This document shows, piece by piece, positions 7,636-14,887 of a stretch of DNA of 64,000 nt (the stretch's first letter is position 1; each line of letters starts with the position of its first letter). A program made the position numbers and the translations under genes. The DNA lies in contig NZ_CM002917.1 in the NCBI RefSeq assembly GCF_000154705.2, positions 2,250,461 through 2,314,460 of the forward strand, written 5' to 3'. The notes beneath the pieces are model-generated. The model searched no databases, was not told the origin of the DNA, and saw only the letters and a program-made list of their open reading frames with translations. This stretch comes from Hoeflea phototrophica DFL-43. GTDB lineage: Bacteria; Pseudomonadota; Alphaproteobacteria; Rhizobiales; Rhizobiaceae.

Positions 7636-8457
7636 TCAGGAGACTGTGGTGCTTGCGACAATCGAATGGGGCAGAACAAACAAATCGTTGGCGGGCTTGA
7701 TGCCCACACGCAGCCGGCACCCGAAGGTTTCGGAGAGAGCTGCGTCGCTCATGACAGCGTCGGGCGTGCCCGACGCCACGACATTGCCGCTGGCCAGGAG
7801 TGTGACACGATCGGCAAACATGGCGGTCAGATTCAGATCATGCATGACCGCAATGACACCACCGCCACGCCGCGCATAATCGGTTGCCAGTTCCATCACG
7901 CCGATCTGATGCCTGATGTCGAGGCTCGACACAGGCTCGTCTAGAAACAGCCATCGTGGACCATGCACATTCACCGGCTCCCAGATCTGGCAAAGGACGC
8001 GCGCCAATTGCACGCGCTGGCGTTCGCCGCCTGACAGCTCCTGGTAGAACCGCCCGGCAAACCCGGCAAGATCGACGGTTGCCAATGCTTCTGCCACCCG
8101 CCGGTCACGGGAAACGCGGTCGACCGGTGCCCCCGCCTTGGCAGAGAGACCGATGCGCACGACTTCGGCCACCGTGAATGGGAAGCTCAGCGTTGTCTCC
8201 TGAGCAAGAACCCCACGCTTTGCAGCCATCTGATGGGGCTTCAGTCCGCCAATGTCCTCACCGTTCAGCCGGATCGTTCCTTCATAGGTCAGGTCACCGG
8301 ACAACGCCTTCAGGAGCGTCGTCTTTCCCGAGCCGTTCGGCCCCGCGATGACGGTCACGCAGCCAGCCTTCGCCTCGAACGAGATGTCGCGAAGGATCGG
8401 GTTGCGGCCGTATCGAACGGTCAGATTTTCAGCTTCAATCATGGCTGAACCACTCAC
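7636..8457 (-). CDS. hmuV: Haem ABC transporter ATP-binding protein
   Basis: This 273-residue cytoplasmic ATPase energises haem import through HmuU. It shows Walker A GPNGSGKTT, signature LSGGERQRVQLARVL, Walker B WLFLDEPVSSLD and the switch His in VIAVMHDLNLTA. The extra stretch around WEPVNVHGPRWLFLDE is typical of haem (HmuV-type) rather than siderophore ATPases. The GTG at 8457 overlaps the hmuU stop by 4 nt (GTGA); an in-frame ATG at 8442 is a possible shorter start. It is the last gene of hemP-hmuSTUV, so it is probably co-regulated by iron from the promoter near 11830. Confidence 0.93.
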   Translation of the reverse strand: MSGSAMIEAENLTVRYGRNPILRDISFEAKAGCVTVIAGPNGSGKTTLLKALSGDLTYEGTIRLNGEDIGGLKPHQMAAKRGVLAQETTLSFPFTVAEVVRIGLSAKAGAPVDRVSRDRRVAEALATVDLAGFAGRFYQELSGGERQRVQLARVLCQIWEPVNVHGPRWLFLDEPVSSLDIRHQIGVMELATDYARRGGGVIAVMHDLNLTAMFADRVTLLASGNVVASGTPDAVMSDAALSETFGCRLRVGIKPANDLFVLPHSIVASTTVS

Positions 8458-9554
8458 AGGTCAAGTATCCCGCGCCGACGCAGCAGGATCCAAAGGAAGA
8501 ACGGCGCACCGATCGCAGCAGTGACAATGCCGATCGGCAATTCGGCCGGCTGTACAACGGTTCGGCTGATGCAGTCGGCGAGGATCAGAAAAACCGCCCC
8601 GAGCAGCCCCGAAGCCGGTATCAGGTAACGGTGGTCCGGACCAATCGAGAGCCTGAGAACATGCGGGACGATGATCCCGACAAAACCGATCCCGCCCGAA
8701 ACCGCAACGGAAGCTCCCGTGGCAGCTGCAATGGCAAAGATCGCAACGTTCTTCACACGCTGCAGCGGGACACCCATGTGCACAGCCGCAGCTTCCCCGA
8801 GAGCAAGCGCGTTCAGCCCGCGTGCCAGATAGAGCGTAAGCAGAAGCGACGGCAACAGGATCGGGATCACGGAAACCACCTTTTCCCATGTCGCGCCGGC
8901 CAGCGATCCAAGGCCCCAGAAGGAAATTTCCCGCAATTGCAGATCATCAGCCACAAAGATCAACAGACCGGTCATCGCAAGCGCAAACGCCCCCAGGGCG
9001 ATACCGGCGAGGAGCATTGTCGCCACCGAAGTGCGGCGCTGCCGGGTGGCAATGGCATAGAGAATGTAGGTTGAGGCAAGGCCACCCAGAAACGCAGCAA
9101 ACGGCAGAGCGTTGGTGCCCACAAGCTGGGCGTAGGGTGCAAGCACCGTACCGCCCAGCACGATGATTGAGACCGCACCCAGGCTTGCCCCTGCCGACAC
9201 TCCAACGATTCCCGGATCCGCCAGCGGATTCCGGAACAGTCCCTGCATCACCGCGCCTGAAATGGCCAATGCCGCACCGATCAATGCGCCCATGATCACC
9301 CGCGGCAGACGGATATTGGTGATCACCATCTGATCGACCGCTTCCAGCCCCTGGCCGTCATCAAGGCCTGCCCAGATCATCAGAATGCGCAGTGTCGGCG
9401 CGTCAAACGCGCCGAACTGCAGGGCAAACCCCATCGTGACAACCAGCAGGACCAGCAGGCCCGCGAGTGCGACCCTGGCCCGCAGGGACCGGTCACCTTC
9501 GAGAGAGGGCTGACCGCGTGCAGCGGTCTGCTTGTGATTCAACCGCTGAAGCAT
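8454..9554 (-). CDS. hmuU: Haem ABC transporter permease
   Basis: This 366-residue inner-membrane protein is an FecCD/BtuC-type permease with about ten membrane segments. Family marks are IRLPRVIMGALIGAALAISGAVMQGLFRNPLADPG split across the first third, GGIGFVGIIVPHVLRLSIGPDHR in the coupling region, and PAELPIGIVTAAIGAPFFLWIL at the end. It forms the channel through which haem from HmuT crosses the membrane. It starts 2 nt after the hmuT stop and overlaps hmuV by 4 nt, so expression is tightly coupled. Confidence 0.93.
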   Translation of the reverse strand: MLQRLNHKQTAARGQPSLEGDRSLRARVALAGLLVLLVVTMGFALQFGAFDAPTLRILMIWAGLDDGQGLEAVDQMVITNIRLPRVIMGALIGAALAISGAVMQGLFRNPLADPGIVGVSAGASLGAVSIIVLGGTVLAPYAQLVGTNALPFAAFLGGLASTYILYAIATRQRRTSVATMLLAGIALGAFALAMTGLLIFVADDLQLREISFWGLGSLAGATWEKVVSVIPILLPSLLLTLYLARGLNALALGEAAAVHMGVPLQRVKNVAIFAIAAATGASVAVSGGIGFVGIIVPHVLRLSIGPDHRYLIPASGLLGAVFLILADCISRTVVQPAELPIGIVTAAIGAPFFLWILLRRRGILDL

Positions 9555-9556
9555 GG

Positions 9557-10453
9557 TCAGTTGCCCGCAGCAGCAGTGTCGCCGTAGAGGATTTCACTCA
9601 ATTCGTGCGCGGCAGCAGCGGTTCTCGGACCGAAGCCGAGGATGAAAAGACCATCCATTGCCACCACTTTGCCTTCCTTGCCTGCCGGGGTTGCCATGAT
9701 CGCGGGATGCGCAAGCACGTCCGCGTCACTGGATTGATCACCGCCACCGCGCATCCTCAGGATCAGCTCAGGCGCCGCTTCAATGACGGCTTCATTGGAA
9801 ACCGGTTTGTAACCATTGACGTCGGCCATGGCATTGACGCCACCCGCAAGGGAAATGATGCCATCGGCATGGGTGTGGCTGCCACCGGCCATCAAACGGC
9901 CGCCGGCGGCCGAAAGCAGAAACATCACCTTGCGCTTGTCGGTGATTCCCTCGGCCGCAGCCTGTGCCGCAGCCAGTTCGGCAGCCGTTTTCGCAGCAAG
10001 CTCTTCGCCTGCCTCTTCGCGCCCCAAGGCGCTGGCCGTCGCCCGAATCTTCCGGATGATCGAATCATTGTCATAACCATCGGGGATGACCACAACCGGA
10101 ATCCCTGCCTGCTTGATGACGCTGGCCGCCTCCGGCGGACCAAAGCCTTCAAGCGCAATGATCATGTCGGGATTGACCGACAAGACGCCCTCGGGCGAAA
10201 GCTGGCGGATATAGCCAACATCCGGCAGTTCACCCGCAGCGCTCGGAAAGGAACTCGTACTGTCACGCGCAATCAAGCGGTCTTCCTCGCCGAGTGCATA
10301 GACGATTTCGGTCAAGGAACCGCCAATGGTGACGATCCGGTTCGGTTCATCGGCGAAGGCAGGCACGGCGCTCGTTCCCGTACCGGCCAGGGCCGCGATC
10401 AAGCAACCGCCCAAGAGCAAACGGCGGCGGCCCAGCTTCACGGACGCTCTCAT
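9557..10453 (-). CDS. hmuT: Periplasmic haem-binding protein
   Basis: This 298-residue protein has the class III periplasmic binding fold (NRIVTIGGSLTEIVYALGEE, VGYIRQLSPEGVLSVNPDMI). It is the HmuT/ChuT-type receptor that hands haem to HmuUV. The N-terminus, LGRRRLLLGGCLIAALAG then PAFADEP, is an export signal with a run of arginines; this could be a Tat or a Sec signal, and the GGC is not a convincing lipobox. The ATG at 10453 directly abuts the hmuS stop. The Tyr in VGYIRQL is a plausible haem ligand by comparison with HmuT/ShuT proteins. Confidence 0.92.
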   Translation of the reverse strand: MRASVKLGRRRLLLGGCLIAALAGTGTSAVPAFADEPNRIVTIGGSLTEIVYALGEEDRLIARDSTSSFPSAAGELPDVGYIRQLSPEGVLSVNPDMIIALEGFGPPEAASVIKQAGIPVVVIPDGYDNDSIIRKIRATASALGREEAGEELAAKTAAELAAAQAAAEGITDKRKVMFLLSAAGGRLMAGGSHTHADGIISLAGGVNAMADVNGYKPVSNEAVIEAAPELILRMRGGGDQSSDADVLAHPAIMATPAGKEGKVVAMDGLFILGFGPRTAAAAHELSEILYGDTAAAGN

Positions 10454-11503
10454 TTATGCAGCCCTCTCGGTTTGGACGCGGGGCAACTGTTCCATGATCA
10501 TGCGCCATCCATCCCGCTCGTCCTGCCCTTCGACCCGCTTGCCAAAGAACTGAACGATCAGCTCGCCAGCCGCGTCATAGGCTTCAAGCGACGTGACGTG
10601 CCCCTTGTCGGTGGGTTTGCGGACGGCCCAGACCTCTTTCACGTGGTCCTGACGCAAATGCAGGTTGAAGCCGGGATCAAGAACATTGAGCCAAGGTCCC
10701 ATATCCTTGATGGTCTCCACAGGCCCTGAATGGATCTGGATGCAGCCCCGATTGCCAACAAAGCACATGATCGGCAGCTTTTCGTTTGCCGAAAGCCGGA
10801 GCATCGATCCAACAGCAGAAGTATCAATCTGCCAGGCGAACTCCTCACCGACACTGCGGACCGCATCAATGCGGTCAATGCCGAGCTTCTTGAGAATAAA
10901 CACGAACTGGTGGGTGTCCGTCATGCGGCTCCAGCGATCGCGCAATTCGTCGGCTGAGAACTCGGTTTTCGGATCTTTCTCGGAAACCGGCTTGGCTTCG
11001 AGCGCCAGCGAGGCCGACTGGTCCTCATGGGCAAAGACGTTGACCAGGTCGCGCCACGCGCCAAGGTCTGTGCTCGGCCGCGAATGGATCTTGTGAACGG
11101 CCTCCCCATGGGCATCGAAGAACTGCAGGCTGTGCCGCACGTTATCGCCGTCACGCGTTTCCACCGCGAAAGCATGGACCCAGTGCTTGGCAAACATCCG
11201 CATGTCTATGGTTTCACCGAGCATCATGGCCGCATGTTTGCCGGAGTGAAACTTGTCATAAACGCCGATTTTCTCATGCACGGCACTGTCGTTTCGGGTC
11301 AGCGCCATGACTTCGCCCAACCCTTCCAGAGCGGTGAAGATCAGGTCAAAATCAACCCGCAAACGGGTCGTGCCTTCGCCACACCAGGCGGCAACATATT
11401 CCGCCTCGGTAATGCCGAGAGAGGTTGCCAGGTCGCGTGCACGCATTTTCGGGTTGTCGGCCTGCGCCGCACGAATCGCCGCAGGTTCGAGTGTGTTTGC
11501 CAT
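10454..11503 (-). CDS. hmuS: Haem-degrading / haem-trafficking protein
   Basis: This 349-residue cytoplasmic protein belongs to the HemS/ChuS/HmuS family, made of two repeated halves. Each half has the family pattern: VMALTRNDSAVHEKIGVY with HWVHAFAVET in the first, and LPIMCFVGNRGCIQIHSG with LHLRQDHVKEVWAVRKPT in the second. It accepts imported haem and either degrades it or passes it on. The length matches the family (about 340-355). It is the second gene of the haem operon, with hemP just upstream and hmuT abutting downstream. Confidence 0.92.
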   Translation of the reverse strand: MANTLEPAAIRAAQADNPKMRARDLATSLGITEAEYVAAWCGEGTTRLRVDFDLIFTALEGLGEVMALTRNDSAVHEKIGVYDKFHSGKHAAMMLGETIDMRMFAKHWVHAFAVETRDGDNVRHSLQFFDAHGEAVHKIHSRPSTDLGAWRDLVNVFAHEDQSASLALEAKPVSEKDPKTEFSADELRDRWSRMTDTHQFVFILKKLGIDRIDAVRSVGEEFAWQIDTSAVGSMLRLSANEKLPIMCFVGNRGCIQIHSGPVETIKDMGPWLNVLDPGFNLHLRQDHVKEVWAVRKPTDKGHVTSLEAYDAAGELIVQFFGKRVEGQDERDGWRMIMEQLPRVQTERAA

Positions 11504-11515
11504 TGCCGAAGCCTC

Positions 11516-11728
11516 TTACTTGTTGAGAATCAGTTTGCCTTGCCGAGTGATCTTCAGCCGGTAGAACGTCCCCTCATGCACAAGCCCGATCTCGTTCGAC
11601 GTGCCAAACAGCTGCTTGCTGTCGAAGACCGGTGTCTGAGGTGCAATGGAAGCTTCGATCGCATGTGCGGGAACATGCGCCGGAATATCTGCGCGCGCCT
11701 GATCGGGCTGTCTCTTGGTGGTGTTCAT
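11516..11728 (-). CDS. hemP: Haem uptake regulator-like small protein HemP
   Basis: This 70-residue protein ends in the HemP signature LFGTSNEIGLVHEGTFYRLK followed by ITRQGKLILNK. Family members are 40-70 residues, so I use the ATG at 11728 (GAGGGA about 10 nt upstream) and not the longer frame from 11809. HemP, also called HmuP, is the first gene of many haem-uptake loci and in rhizobia acts as a positive factor for haem receptor expression. Here it leads hemP-hmuSTUV, 12 nt before hmuS, behind the iron-regulated promoter region at 11803-11849. Confidence 0.88.
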   Translation of the reverse strand: MNTTKRQPDQARADIPAHVPAHAIEASIAPQTPVFDSKQLFGTSNEIGLVHEGTFYRLKITRQGKLILNK

Positions 11729-11802
11729 GCTGGGATAATCCCTCGTCTCGCTGGGCTGGCGGCATGCTGGCTGGGCGAGGGTTGATGGTCGTTCGTTATA
11801 TC

Positions 11803-11831
11803 TTGACAAGAATTATCATGTTTTATATCGA
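11803..11831 (+). promoter_or_regulatory. Putative promoter of the exbB-exbD-exbD-tonB operon
   Basis: A perfect TTGACA (11803-11808) is followed after 17 nt by TATCGA (11826-11831); a TATATC at 11824-11829 with a 15-nt spacer is an alternative. The -35 box is covered by the IRO box, so the same repressor could control both divergent operons. The first gene on this side starts at 11936. Confidence 0.4.
11804..11818. promoter_or_regulatory. IRO-box-like motif (RirA site)
   Basis: TGA (11804-11806), nine bases, then TCA (11816-11818) matches the rhizobial IRO box TGA-N9-TCA bound by the iron-sulfur repressor RirA. Only six bases are fixed, so chance matches are common. The support is the position: between divergent haem-uptake and TonB operons, over the plus-strand -35 and the expected minus-strand start. 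No rirA or irr gene is in the window. Confidence 0.55.
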
Positions 11832-11935: not shown

Positions 11936-12385
11936 ATGGATATGGCGAAGCGGAACGGCCCCCATCTGGCCTCGGCGCTGGCACTGATGTTGGCATTCGT
12001 TTTTCAACCGGCCGCTGCCGAGGAAACCGCCACGTCTCAAGGCCTGTCGCTCGAACTCAACCGCCTTGAGCAAAACGGCGCGGCTTGCCGTGCCACCCTT
12101 GTCGCCAAAAACGGGTTTGAGAACAATCTCGACGAGACCGCCTTCGAACTTGTGATGTTCGACAAGGCTGGTCTGATCAGCCTGATGACCGTGTTTGATT
12201 TCGGCGCTTTGCCTGCCGGCAAGACCCGGGTTCAGCGCTTCGACCTGCCGCAAACATCGTGCCCAGATCTGACGCGCATTCTCATCAATGGCGTATCGCG
12301 CTGCGCCGGCACTGGCATCGATGTTTCGCGATGCGAGATGAACCTTAGCACCAACAACCGTGCCGGAATTGTATTCGGCCGCTGA
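11936..12385 (+). CDS. Secreted protein of unknown function upstream of exbB
   Basis: This 149-residue protein begins with a signal peptide (HLASALALMLAFVF then QPAAAEE, probable cleavage after AAA). The mature part has no domain I recognise. It contains cysteines in AACRATL, SCPDL, SRCAGTG and SRCEMN, which could form two periplasmic disulfides. The ATG at 11936 is preceded by AGAGAGGA; the open frame continues upstream to 11840 but that part has no signal-like start. The gene lies 19 nt before exbB and is surely transcribed with the TonB genes. A periplasmic role in TonB-dependent haem uptake is an inference from context only. Confidence 0.7.
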   Translation: MDMAKRNGPHLASALALMLAFVFQPAAAEETATSQGLSLELNRLEQNGAACRATLVAKNGFENNLDETAFELVMFDKAGLISLMTVFDFGALPAGKTRVQRFDLPQTSCPDLTRILINGVSRCAGTGIDVSRCEMNLSTNNRAGIVFGR

Positions 12386-12404: not shown

Positions 12405-13100
12405 ATGCCCATTAATAGCAACCTGATTGCGCAGATTGGCGCATTTCTCAGTCTCGGCGGCCCCGTCGTTTCAATCCTTATCGTGGTCTCGATCCTGAGC
12501 CTCGCTGTGATTCTGTTGAAGTTCTTCCAGTTCGCACGCGCAGGCATTGGCGCGCGCAGCCGCTCAGAACGCGCTGTCGCGTTGTTTGTGTCCGGACGTG
12601 TCCGCGAAGCCCATGATTTGGCTGCACTGGGCCGCAATCCGACTGCCGTAATCGTTGCCCAGGCCATCGAACTGGTGATGGCAAAACGGCTGGACAAGCA
12701 GGCCATCGAAGAACGGCTCACCCGCATCGCGACAACACGGCTCCACGAGTTGCAGTCAGGCTTCCGCTTCCTGGATTCGGTTGCCCAGCTTGCGCCGCTC
12801 ATGGGCCTCTTCGGGACCGTGTTGGGCATGATCGAGGCTTTCAAGGATTTGCAATCCGCCGGCGATGCAGTCGATCCGTCGCTGCTGGCCGGAGGCATCT
12901 GGGTCGCGCTGCTGACAACCGCCGTGGGGCTGGCCATCGCAATGCCGGTCTCGCTGATCCTCGCATGGTTCGAAACCCGTGTCGAAAGCGAGCGCGTTGC
13001 CGTTCAAACACTCACCACAGACATCCTGACGGGCGTCAGCCCGGTCGTGTCTGAAGCCCCCTCAAGGGAGACTGTCGGGGAGCCACAGCTTGCAAGTTGA
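12405..13100 (+). CDS. exbB: ExbB, MotA/TolQ/ExbB proton channel subunit
   Basis: This 231-residue inner-membrane protein has three membrane segments: PVVSILIVVSILSLAVILL near the N-terminus, then LAPLMGLFGTVLGMIEAF and GIWVALLTTAVGLAIAMPVS in the C-terminal half. A cytoplasmic helical stretch lies between the first two. This is the ExbB pattern, including the GLFGTVLGM motif. ExbB forms the pentamer around an ExbD dimer that uses the proton gradient to drive TonB. The downstream order exbD-exbD-tonB confirms the role. Its end overlaps the TTG start of the first exbD. Confidence 0.92.
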   Translation: MPINSNLIAQIGAFLSLGGPVVSILIVVSILSLAVILLKFFQFARAGIGARSRSERAVALFVSGRVREAHDLAALGRNPTAVIVAQAIELVMAKRLDKQAIEERLTRIATTRLHELQSGFRFLDSVAQLAPLMGLFGTVLGMIEAFKDLQSAGDAVDPSLLAGGIWVALLTTAVGLAIAMPVSLILAWFETRVESERVAVQTLTTDILTGVSPVVSEAPSRETVGEPQLAS

Positions 13101-13479
13101 CCTCCCAGTCCGGCGCCAATCCAGGCTCTCGCTCACTCCGCTCATCGACGTCATCTTTCTCCTGCTGCTCTTCTTCATGCTGACCTCTACCTTCTCGCGT
13201 TACTCCGAGATCAGCCTGGCAGGCGGCGGCAGCGGAGAGGCAAGCGCGGCGTCACGCCCGGACGTGATCCTCTCTGTGGCTGAAGGCGAACTCAAGCTCA
13301 ACGGCAACCTGGAGCCACTGGCATCGGTCGCTGACCGACTTGGGGAACTGAAGGACGCCGGAGCGGAGCGTCTGTTGATCATCGTCAGCCCCCATGCCGT
13401 GGCTCAGGATTTCGTCTCCGTCATGGCCGAGGTCAATCGCTCAGGAATGCCGGCAACCGTTGCGAGACAACAACGATGA
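13090..13479 (+). CDS. exbD: ExbD, biopolymer transport protein (first copy, Asp present)
   Basis: This 129-residue protein has a short cytoplasmic N-terminus, one membrane helix with LTPLIDVIFLLLLFFMLTST, and a periplasmic ExbD/TolR domain. Asp20 in the helix corresponds to the essential, proton-carrying Asp25 of E. coli ExbD. The start appears to be TTG at 13090, overlapping the exbB stop, with GGGGAG about 9 nt upstream; no ATG or GTG precedes the helix in frame. It overlaps the second exbD by ATGA. It should form the ExbD part of the stator, either as a homodimer or paired with the second copy. Confidence 0.9.
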   Translation: MQVDLPVRRQSRLSLTPLIDVIFLLLLFFMLTSTFSRYSEISLAGGGSGEASAASRPDVILSVAEGELKLNGNLEPLASVADRLGELKDAGAERLLIIVSPHAVAQDFVSVMAEVNRSGMPATVARQQR

Positions 13480-13883
13480 TTCGCATCTCGCCCAAGCGAA
13501 CATCGCGCAAGCCGGAAAACACGATCGCACTGATCAATGTCGTGTTTCTGATGCTGATCTTTTTCCTTGTCGCAGGCACCCTGGCACCATCACCGGACCG
13601 CAATGTGGACTTCATCACGCTCGCCGCGAAAGATCCGGCGGCACCACCGGATATGCTTTACATCCGCGCCGATGGAACCCTGACCTGGCGCGGCAATCAA
13701 CTGCCCATGACAGAACACGTCCAACGCTGGCAAAACCTGCAGAGTACGGAGACGGACCCAGTGCCGTTGCGGATTGCCGCCGACCGCTCCCTGCCCGCGC
13801 TCGATCTTCTCGATACGATTGACGAACTTCGCAAAGCTGGCGTCGACCAACTTACCCTGATAGCGGAACGGCTACCTCAATGA
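13476..13883 (+). CDS. ExbD-like protein (second copy, Asp replaced by Asn)
   Basis: This 135-residue protein has the same plan as ExbD: N-terminal tail, one helix (ENTIALINVVFLMLIFFLVA) and a periplasmic domain ending in LRKAGVDQLTLIAE. At the position of the essential membrane Asp it has Asn21; the codon is AAT at 13536-13538. A sole ExbD with this change would be expected to lose proton coupling, since Asp25 of E. coli ExbD is essential. With the intact copy just upstream, the protein may act as one half of an ExbD heterodimer. It overlaps both neighbours by ATGA, so stoichiometric expression is likely. The frame is intact, with no sign of decay. Confidence 0.85.
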   Translation: MIRISPKRTSRKPENTIALINVVFLMLIFFLVAGTLAPSPDRNVDFITLAAKDPAAPPDMLYIRADGTLTWRGNQLPMTEHVQRWQNLQSTETDPVPLRIAADRSLPALDLLDTIDELRKAGVDQLTLIAERLPQ

Positions 13884-14887
13884 GACTGACCCGTAATCAA
13901 CTCCTGACCACCATCGCGCTCTCGCTGGCAGTCCATGTGGCCGGCGCCGCAGTCTTTATCCCACGCCAGGAACAGATGGCGATTGCCGGCGGTTCGGCGG
14001 CAAGTCAGCTCATAATCGGAACCGCCTTCAATGACAGCGTGATGGCAGGAGAAACCGGCGAGGTCATTGAACCGGTTGACGCAACCGATGACGTTCAACC
14101 CGTTGCGACGCCGGTTGCTGAGACTTCGACCGTCGAACCCGTTGAGACGGTGGAACCGGTCACCCAAACCGACATTGCCCACACCCCATCGGAGGTTCTT
14201 CCGCCAAGTGAGGAAACGCCGGACTTGATGACCACGGCGTCTGCTTTGCAGCCGCTCATGCCTGTGACCGAGGAGCCGGCGCTTGTTGCGTTGCCCCCCG
14301 AACCGGTTGCCAGCGAGGCCCCGGCGGAAATCGCTGCTGTTTCCCCGGTCAACGAAATCAAGCCGGCAGAACCGGATATCCCACAACCTGCCAACGTGCC
14401 GGTGCCGGTTGCGCGCCCGGAACCACCGGAGACCAGGGTAGCGCAGGTCACGCCGCCCAGACCGGCGCCGAAAAAAACCGAGGAAAAACGCGCTACCGCC
14501 AAACCCAAAGCGCGGGGCGACGGCGGCGCGCAGCGGACAACCGCCAGCCGGTCGGCAAGCGGCTCAGCGACAGCCAAACGCAACACCGCCGCCGGCAATG
14601 CCGCTGTTTCCAACTACCCGGGAAAGGTCGCTTCCAAGCTGCGCCGGTCGCTGCGGTATCCACGCGAGGCCAAGCGTGAGCGGATAAGAGGGGAAGTCGT
14701 CGTGTCTTTCTCCGTCTCGGCCAATGGCGGCGTCAGCCGGGTCCGAATCGCACGAAGCTCCGGTCATTCAATTCTCGACAATGCCGCTAGAGAAGCCGTG
14801 CGACGTGCCGCCCCCTTCCCGCGGATCCCCGCCGGTGCCGGCCGTTCGAGCTGGACCTTCTCGGTCCCACTCGGATTCACCCGTTAG
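13880..14887 (+). CDS. tonB: TonB energy transducer
   Basis: This 335-residue protein has the three TonB parts. An N-terminal membrane anchor contains the S-x3-H motif (Ser15, His19 in SLAVHVAGA). A long Pro/Glu/Val-rich periplasmic spacer spans about residues 60-210. The C-terminal domain spans about 245-335 (YPGKVASKLRRSLRYP, VVVSFSVSANGGVSRVRIAR, PRIPAGAGRSSWTFSVPLGF). It links ExbBD to outer-membrane receptors. It ends the operon and is convergent with pbpC. No TonB-dependent receptor is encoded in the window, so the receptor for the haem system must lie elsewhere. Confidence 0.92.
   Translation: MRLTRNQLLTTIALSLAVHVAGAAVFIPRQEQMAIAGGSAASQLIIGTAFNDSVMAGETGEVIEPVDATDDVQPVATPVAETSTVEPVETVEPVTQTDIAHTPSEVLPPSEETPDLMTTASALQPLMPVTEEPALVALPPEPVASEAPAEIAAVSPVNEIKPAEPDIPQPANVPVPVARPEPPETRVAQVTPPRPAPKKTEEKRATAKPKARGDGGAQRTTASRSASGSATAKRNTAAGNAAVSNYPGKVASKLRRSLRYPREAKRERIRGEVVVSFSVSANGGVSRVRIARSSGHSILDNAAREAVRRAAPFPRIPAGAGRSSWTFSVPLGFTR

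Follow-up and report, generated by a model that had tools for sequence, protein, structure and literature searches.

A haem-linked Ton operon of Hoeflea phototrophica encodes two ExbD proteins, the second with Asn at the site of the essential membrane Asp

Introduction

Can a Ton motor turn on an axle in which one of the two ExbD chains is unable to bind a proton? This question is raised by an exbB-exbD1-exbD2-tonB operon (12405-14887, + strand) that adjoins a haem-uptake cluster in Hoeflea phototrophica DFL-43 (Alphaproteobacteria, Rhizobiaceae). Positions are those of the window, the whole 64,000-nucleotide stretch of contig NZ_CM002917.1 that was analyzed. ExbD1 keeps the essential membrane Asp, and ExbD2 has Asn at the aligned position. 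Here we report that this Asn is near-invariant among relatives of ExbD2, and we weigh what it suggests about the motor.

Current models of how proton flow is converted into force in ExbBD, TolQR, and MotAB place an essential Asp on each of two identical axle chains and assign 36 degrees of rotation to each proton. In E. coli-type motors, according to the available text of four reports (PMC12215075, PMC9022066, PMC12905483, PMC9008036), one Asp faces an ExbB Thr while the other lies at the pore interface or in a cavity, with 36 degrees per proton; the same text of PMC9008036 calls ExbD Asp25 strictly conserved.

Results

The four genes of the operon are read from the same strand, and their ends overlap at each junction:

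12405..13100, + strand: exbB, 231 amino acids (aa) (Pfam MotA_ExbB, 99.9 bits)
13090..13479, + strand: exbD1, 129 aa, TTG start, Asp20 kept (Pfam ExbD, PF02472, 54.4 bits)
13476..13883, + strand: exbD2, 135 aa, Asn21 in place of the essential Asp (Pfam ExbD, PF02472, 49.4 bits)
13536..13538, + strand: AAT codon of Asn21 in ExbD2 (read from the sequence)
13880..14887, + strand: tonB, 335 aa (Pfam TonB_C, 66.5 bits)

The TTG start of exbD1 gives an 11-nt overlap with the end of exbB, and the exbD1/exbD2 and exbD2/tonB junctions are both ATGA overlaps. Asp20 of ExbD1 lies in the motif SLTPLIDVIF and Asn21 of ExbD2 in TIALINVVF; an earlier note on this DNA had given both residues, the codon, and the extent of the exbD pair exactly as we found them.

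Both proteins score above the PF02472 cut-off of 25.4 bits. The NCBIfam equivalog cut-offs were missed by ExbB (63 versus 206.2) and ExbD2 (26.4 versus 152.95), and the sole NCBIfam match of ExbD1 was tolR (27.6 versus a cut-off of 127.3). A profile of the ExbD2 group (41 proteins) matched the ExbD of E. coli (6tyi_Y, E = 1.4e-16) and that of Serratia (7ajq, E = 2.1e-18); the Asn falls on Asp25 of the former, in line with the earlier note, and on the Asp of the latter. AlphaFold models built from alignments of 41 sequences gave each protein a transmembrane (TM) helix that holds the site (residues 16-35 in ExbD2, 16-38 in ExbD1) and an ExbD-like periplasmic domain, with a mean predicted local distance difference test score of 83.4 for ExbD2 and 84.2 for ExbD1. 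In Foldseek searches, the top match of both models was 8vgc, ExbD with a TonB D-box peptide (E = 2.8e-05 for ExbD2 and 1.4e-03 for ExbD1). The first seven matches of the ExbD2 model were ExbD/TolR proteins, five of them at E <= 0.001; the ExbD1 model had none at E 0.001, and mostly unrelated proteins from rank 5 down. ExbD2 belongs to the ExbD/TolR family by profile and by fold and lacks the TM-helix Asp that ExbD1 possesses. ExbD2 is therefore an ExbD/TolR homologue but, given that Asn stands at the place of E. coli Asp25, not a canonical ExbD.

To count the residue at this site among relatives, we read loci from samples of the family (151 genomes), the class (385 and 289), and the phylum (398), from two overlapping samples of a second class (229 and 56 genomes), and from extracted regions; a scan of a genome collection, with 418 confirmed matches, added its best 80, all of them named loci. 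The counts cover the loci read, a subset of the sample matches, and the sources overlap; removal of duplicates by sequence core reduced 278 loci to 204 distinct ExbD1/ExbD2 pairs. ExbD1 has Asp in all 204, and the reverse arrangement was never met. In 200 pairs the residues are Asp/Asn, in two Asp/Ser (L137, L308), and in two Asp/Asp (L153 in G749, L206 in G260). The ExbD2 site codons are AAC (123), AAT (77), AGC (1), AGT (1), GAT (1), and GAC (1). AAC and AAT are one transition away from the Asp codons, and the site is the second most conserved column of ExbD2. The Asn is near-invariant although one base change restores Asp, which argues that a neutral side chain is wanted and that the Asn is held rather than drifting. 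The Asp and Ser copies of ExbD2 sit beside a normal ExbD1 and would be useful natural controls.

Two ways in which this count might mislead were considered and rejected. One scan pattern had spanned the Asn, but without the pairs represented by the 80 scan loci the counts were 135 Asp/Asn, two Asp/Ser, and two Asp/Asp. Sorting by profiles that contain the Asn could be circular; profiles of the periplasmic domain only left the Asn with ExbD2 in 199 of 200 cases, and 5 of 408 proteins switched class (L171_1, L198_1, L228_1, L227_1, L227_2). Nor is the Asn a by-product of tandem exbD genes in general, since seven tandem loci of other type have Asp in both copies. Outside the pairs, 65 distinct ExbD/TolR proteins were counted: 61 with Asp, two in which the site is not visible, and two Asn-bearing ExbD2 copies from unpairable loci, one an apparent fusion and the other at a contig edge. 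The apparent fusion joins ExbD1 and ExbD2 in one stop-free frame (G274; L120 and L184 are the same locus); since its ExbD1 tail is unlike that of relatives and the assembly is fragmented into about 410 pieces, we read it as a probable frameshift and left it out as a natural fusion.

The Asn type occurs in named Hoeflea, Mesorhizobium, Nitratireductor, Chelativorans, Roseibium, Ruegeria, Phaeobacter, Leisingera, Roseovarius, and others, the nearest named relatives being Hoeflea and Pseudohoeflea (ExbD2 identity 73-77 %, L034-L038). By tblastn match alone, relatives were also found on plasmids, in 28 records that carry ten genus names, with Phaeobacter the most frequent. The second class, to which G540 belongs, we take to be Gammaproteobacteria from its very large number of families. 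A match at E <= 1e-24 was present in 32 of 229 of its genomes; the 28 loci newly read in its two samples (L292-L319) comprised 15 Asn pairs, one Ser pair, and 12 single Asp-ExbD loci. Divergent copies scoring 65-83 bits (L282-L287) keep the Asn. It is likewise kept in a set of divergent pairs (L200-L201, L204-L205, L207) whose ExbD2 helix, ILFV or VLAF, is unlike the usual pattern; in the genomes of L204 and L205, these pairs come in addition to a standard one.

The surroundings of the site differ between the two proteins. All 204 distinct ExbD2 proteins lack any other Asp or Glu from -5 to +13 around the site, so that, as the earlier note required of its reading, there is no substitute Asp on the same face of the helix within the membrane. 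At -7/-8, the cytoplasmic end of the helix, an acid is present in 191/204 ExbD2 versus 4/204 ExbD1, and the mean net charge at -12 to -5 is +3.0 in ExbD1 versus +0.6 in ExbD2 (185 pairs). Across 170 pairs, mean column entropy in the TM helix is 0.84 bits in ExbD2 and 0.72 in ExbD1, and in the periplasmic region 2.60 and 2.73 bits, respectively. ExbD2 has an invariant Asp103 for which ExbD1 has no matching invariant Asp.

We built two trees with the site column removed. In a FastTree phylogeny of 229 proteins and 136 columns (Shimodaira-Hasegawa-like support), the ExbD2 clade (support 0.855) took in 97/97 Asn-bearing ExbD2 proteins, one Ser and two Asp copies, and one intruder, L227_1; the ExbD1 clade (0.952) held 96/97 plus the partners of the exceptions, and ExbD1 and ExbD2 together were separate from other ExbD/TolR (0.864). 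In an IQ-TREE phylogeny of 110 proteins (ultrafast bootstrap), the ExbD2 clade held 41/42 (bootstrap 98), with L196_2 outside and all four exceptions inside, and the ExbD1 clade 42/42 (bootstrap 85). The joint group in this second tree also took in E. coli ExbD, three relatives of E. coli type, and the proteins of L304 and L309-L311; because E. coli-type and single ExbD fall inside it, a single shared duplication is a weaker claim than two distinct lineages. The single-ExbD loci L304, L309, L310, and L311 have an ExbB score near that of the Asp/Asn type and an IAPLID or MAPLID motif, and they may resemble the state before duplication. Since the three exceptions then known nest within the Asn clade, Asn seems to have been the ancestral residue of ExbD2, with the rare Asp copies arising later. 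The earlier note had named, as support for its reading, a clade in which the second copy always has Asn or another neutral residue. This is nearly what was found: the clade was recovered apart from one stray protein in each tree, and 202 of the 204 second copies are neutral, the two Asp copies being the departures from "always".

exbD2 is intact, as had been claimed: its frame is open, and the ratio of nonsynonymous to synonymous differences (dN/dS) indicates purifying selection. The median dN/dS was 0.148 for ExbD2 (range 0.104-0.27) and 0.259 for ExbD1 (0.123-0.405), with overlapping ranges, over 20 usable pairs from seven Hoeflea-type loci, six of them distinct (L005 and L035 are the same stretch). 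These ratios are rough because synonymous differences are high (median per site, 0.54 for ExbD2 and 0.48 for ExbD1).

The two genes travel together. In the family sample, an ExbD1 profile found 43 loci at E <= 1e-18 in 41/151 genomes, and each of the 43 loci also holds an ExbD2, which on reading proved to have Asn in every case. The system is patchy in the family: most of its genomes gave no such match, among them one from the same genus (G046). Of 188 distinct pairs, 187 have exbD1 upstream of exbD2 in the same orientation. A split arrangement was seen once, at L275 (G102:C62), one of the 43 family loci, where ExbD1 and an Asn-bearing ExbD2 are on opposite strands with ExbB nearby. A 4-base stop/start overlap of exbD1 and exbD2 is possible in 80 of the 187 co-oriented pairs, the Hoeflea pair included, which fits the co-translation proposed earlier. 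None of the 335 loci read holds more than two ExbD-type open reading frames (ORFs). Partial correlations of distance matrices (184 loci) were 0.47 for ExbD1-ExbD2 given ExbB, 0.40 for ExbD1-ExbB, and 0.41 for ExbD2-ExbB, and were dropped as support for a heterodimer.

ExbB retains both threonines that, in E. coli ExbB, are close to the ExbD Asp. Alignment to E. coli ExbB showed equivalents of T148 and T181 in 170/170 distinct ExbB proteins of Asp/Asn loci, of Pro190 in 170/170, and of Pro141 in 169/170, with one gap. Position 176 is Val in 118/170, as in Hoeflea, and Glu in 34/170. Loss of Glu176 was rejected as a linked change; it is not specific, because Glu is also absent in 8/9 Asp/Asp and 10/13 single-ExbD loci.

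Within the host genome, searched as one contig (G000, 4.47 Mb, completeness 99.99), PF02472 matched three proteins: ExbD1, ExbD2, and TolR (136.5 versus an equivalog cut-off of 127.3). TonB_C matched only the tonB of this operon, and PF00593 only one receptor, of haem type by TIGR01785 (417.5 bits versus a cut-off of 316.85); this sole TonB-dependent receptor match (G000:C1:3557306-3558643) lies about 1.3 Mb from the Ton operon and haem ABC cluster. PF01618 matched four proteins: the operon ExbB, TolQ (288.2 bits versus an equivalog cut-off of 221), MotA (360.5 versus 303.8), and one weak match. The latter is a 356-aa protein (G000:C1:3822204-3822431, L342) with borderline scores (24.1 bits in one search, 22.5 versus 22.9 in another) and no NCBIfam name, which could be a distant proton-channel relative. 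A second Ton stator was rejected as a candidate, since the other ExbB-type matches are TolQ and MotA by equivalog cut-offs and the 356-aa protein matches at cut-off level; Pfam and NCBIfam profile searches of the genome revealed neither a further TonB nor a further ExbD of Ton type. With one TonB, one receptor, and no second Ton stator beyond TolQR and MotA, the exbB-exbD1-exbD2-tonB operon is the only detectable Ton motor of this genome. exbB, exbD, and tonB are linked and a TonB-dependent receptor is present, as in a Ton energizer, and the operon probably encodes a working motor.

Discussion

We propose, with a probability of roughly 0.6, that ExbD1 and ExbD2 form the axle of this motor as a heterodimer, in which ExbD1 supplies the one carboxylate and ExbD2 stays neutral throughout. 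The surrounding ExbB ring, a pentamer to judge by homology, would contain a single proton-binding Asp, on its one ExbD1 helix, and an Asn at equal height on its one ExbD2 helix. The Asp of ExbD1 would bind and release a proton against the conserved threonines of ExbB. In shape, Asn resembles a protonated Asp, yet it is unable to donate a proton; in ExbD2 it could mimic a permanently protonated Asp, able to sit in the hydrophobic pore or slide through it while binding no proton. Such an axle would use one proton per two 36-degree steps, which makes 5 per turn instead of 10, or make a one-sided stroke, and the motor would power TonB and, via TonB, the single haem receptor of the genome. A salt bridge between the ExbD2 acid at -7/-8 and the basic stretch ahead of the ExbD1 helix could favor the mixed pair. 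We infer the heterodimer, its 1:1 stoichiometry, the part of the Asn as a dummy site, and the proton count from these comparisons. The broader claim, that this is an ancient lineage of Ton motors running on a single carboxylate through an obligate ExbD1(Asp)-ExbD2(Asn) axle, with one proton per 72 degrees or a one-sided stroke, is possible but on balance somewhat doubtful.

Several observations count against such an axle. Co-occurrence and gene order are also compatible with two separate homodimers, the stop/start overlap is possible in no more than 80 of the 187 co-oriented pairs, and the ExbD-ExbB correlations nearly equal that between the two ExbD proteins. Because two ExbD2 proteins carry Asp and two carry Ser, the Asn is not absolutely required. 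In the available text of the reports, one model has the two Asp residues exchanging protonation (PMC12905483), and the D25N variant of E. coli ExbD has no activity and does not crosslink (PMC11658791). On these grounds an Asn chain might block the normal cycle. The E. coli D25N protein was reportedly tested as the only ExbD present.

If ExbD1 homodimers were the motor, ExbD2 could serve as a scaffold, in the same or other rings, that holds TonB or peptidoglycan in the periplasm or stabilizes ExbB. ExbD1 could build the usual two-Asp axle, and its model shares the top match 8vgc; the ExbD2 model matches ExbD periplasmic domains bound to the TonB D-box peptide or to TonB (8vgc, 8p9r), and the invariant Asp103 is its own. 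However, a scaffold would need neither a tight TM helix nor the Asn, whereas the ExbD2 membrane helix is tightly held relative to its periplasmic region and its Asn is near-invariant; this weakens the scaffold, which we consider unlikely. A further option is that ExbD1-ExbD1, ExbD1-ExbD2, and ExbD2-ExbD2 axles all form and that the motor is throttled or left idling according to how much ExbD2 is present. Both exbD genes lie in one operon, and a D-to-N chain could be dominant-negative by analogy with the inactive E. coli D25N (available text of PMC11658791). Yet the fixed gene order, the ceiling of two ExbD-type ORFs per locus, and the differing N-terminal charges favor a fixed ExbD1:ExbD2 ratio, and such a mixture seems distinctly unlikely.

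The conserved acid at -7/-8, about two helical turns below the Asn, might instead have taken over proton release, as its near-restriction to ExbD2 could suggest. But E. coli ExbD Asp17 and TolR Glu15 also place an acid at -8, beside a working Asp, and the N-terminal stretch lies in the cytoplasmic cavity of the E. coli structure (available text of PMC12215075), which leaves a moved carboxylate highly improbable. Decay of a duplicate, or a sequencing artefact, would account for the loss of the key residue and nothing further; the open frames, the signs of purifying selection, and Asn in 200/204 pairs across two classes refute it, and we give it practically no weight.

The ExbB5-ExbD2 motors of E. 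coli and Serratia have ExbB ring residues, ExbD fold, and TonB linkage in common with the Hoeflea system (matches to 6tyi, 7ajq, 8vgc, and others), but their axle consists of two identical ExbD chains, both with Asp25, whereas Hoeflea encodes two diverged chains, one with Asn. The haem operon of Ruegeria sp. TM1040 (exbB, exbD1, exbD1a, tonB, hmuRSTUV) has a very similar gene set, with a duplicate exbD1 and a hypothetical gene on record; the available text of PMC5225302 is silent on the Asp/Asn difference. Asn is present in four named Ruegeria loci other than TM1040 (L091, L093, L096, L106). Sphingobium SYK-6 likewise carries tandem exbD genes in one operon (tonB1-exbB1-exbD1-exbD2), neither of which could be disrupted, but there Asp25 is present in both copies (available text of PMC8599685). 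Tandem exbD loci with two ExbB-like ORFs (L202, L203, L217, L218, L224-L226) also differ in having Asp in both copies and in falling outside the ExbD1 and ExbD2 clades. Myxococcus AglRQS is alike by description, with two different MotB-like proteins and one ring protein; the available text of PMC9389320 gives it as unknown whether AglQ and AglS dimerize with themselves or with each other.

The earlier note knew of no described stator of this type. We found no mention of an ExbD with a natural Asn in the available text of the open-access literature, subscription papers and preprints lying outside the scope. Tandem exbD genes as such are in print, in a haem operon (PMC5225302) and in Sphingobium (PMC8599685). 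The description "strictly conserved Asp" does not hold for these widespread Ton operons: an axle protein in which Asn replaces that Asp has been retained, beside an Asp partner, in two proteobacterial classes. If ExbD1 and ExbD2 pair, nature already uses working axles of mixed Asp/Asn type, and simple point changes could test whether two carboxylates are needed, how many protons are spent per turn, and whether a rotary or a one-sided model applies. If the obligate single-carboxylate axle is true, the two-carboxylate alternation assumed for 5:2 motors would be unnecessary.

Neighboring genes

A divergent haem-uptake operon and one small gene lie upstream of exbB:

7636..8457, - strand: hmuV-like ATP-binding cassette (ABC) ATPase (Pfam ABC_tran, 94.4 bits; hmuV name from context)
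8454..9554, - strand: putative hmuU-like permease ORF (name from context)
9557..10453, - strand: hmuT-like periplasmic binding protein (Pfam Peripla_BP_2, 129.3 bits; hmuT name from context)
10454..11503, - strand: hemS/hmuS haem-degrading protein, divergent operon (Pfam HemS, 289.5 bits)
11516..11809, - strand, start position approximate: hemP, haemin uptake protein (Pfam hemP, 53.0 bits)
11936..12385, + strand: small protein, 149 aa, with a signal-peptide-like N-terminus by eye

The small protein had no Pfam or NCBIfam match at E <= 0.001. Relatives of it occur in 78 of the 80 scan loci, 66 of them directly upstream of exbB on the same strand, and because of this recurrence it may be an unrecognized accessory part of this Ton system.

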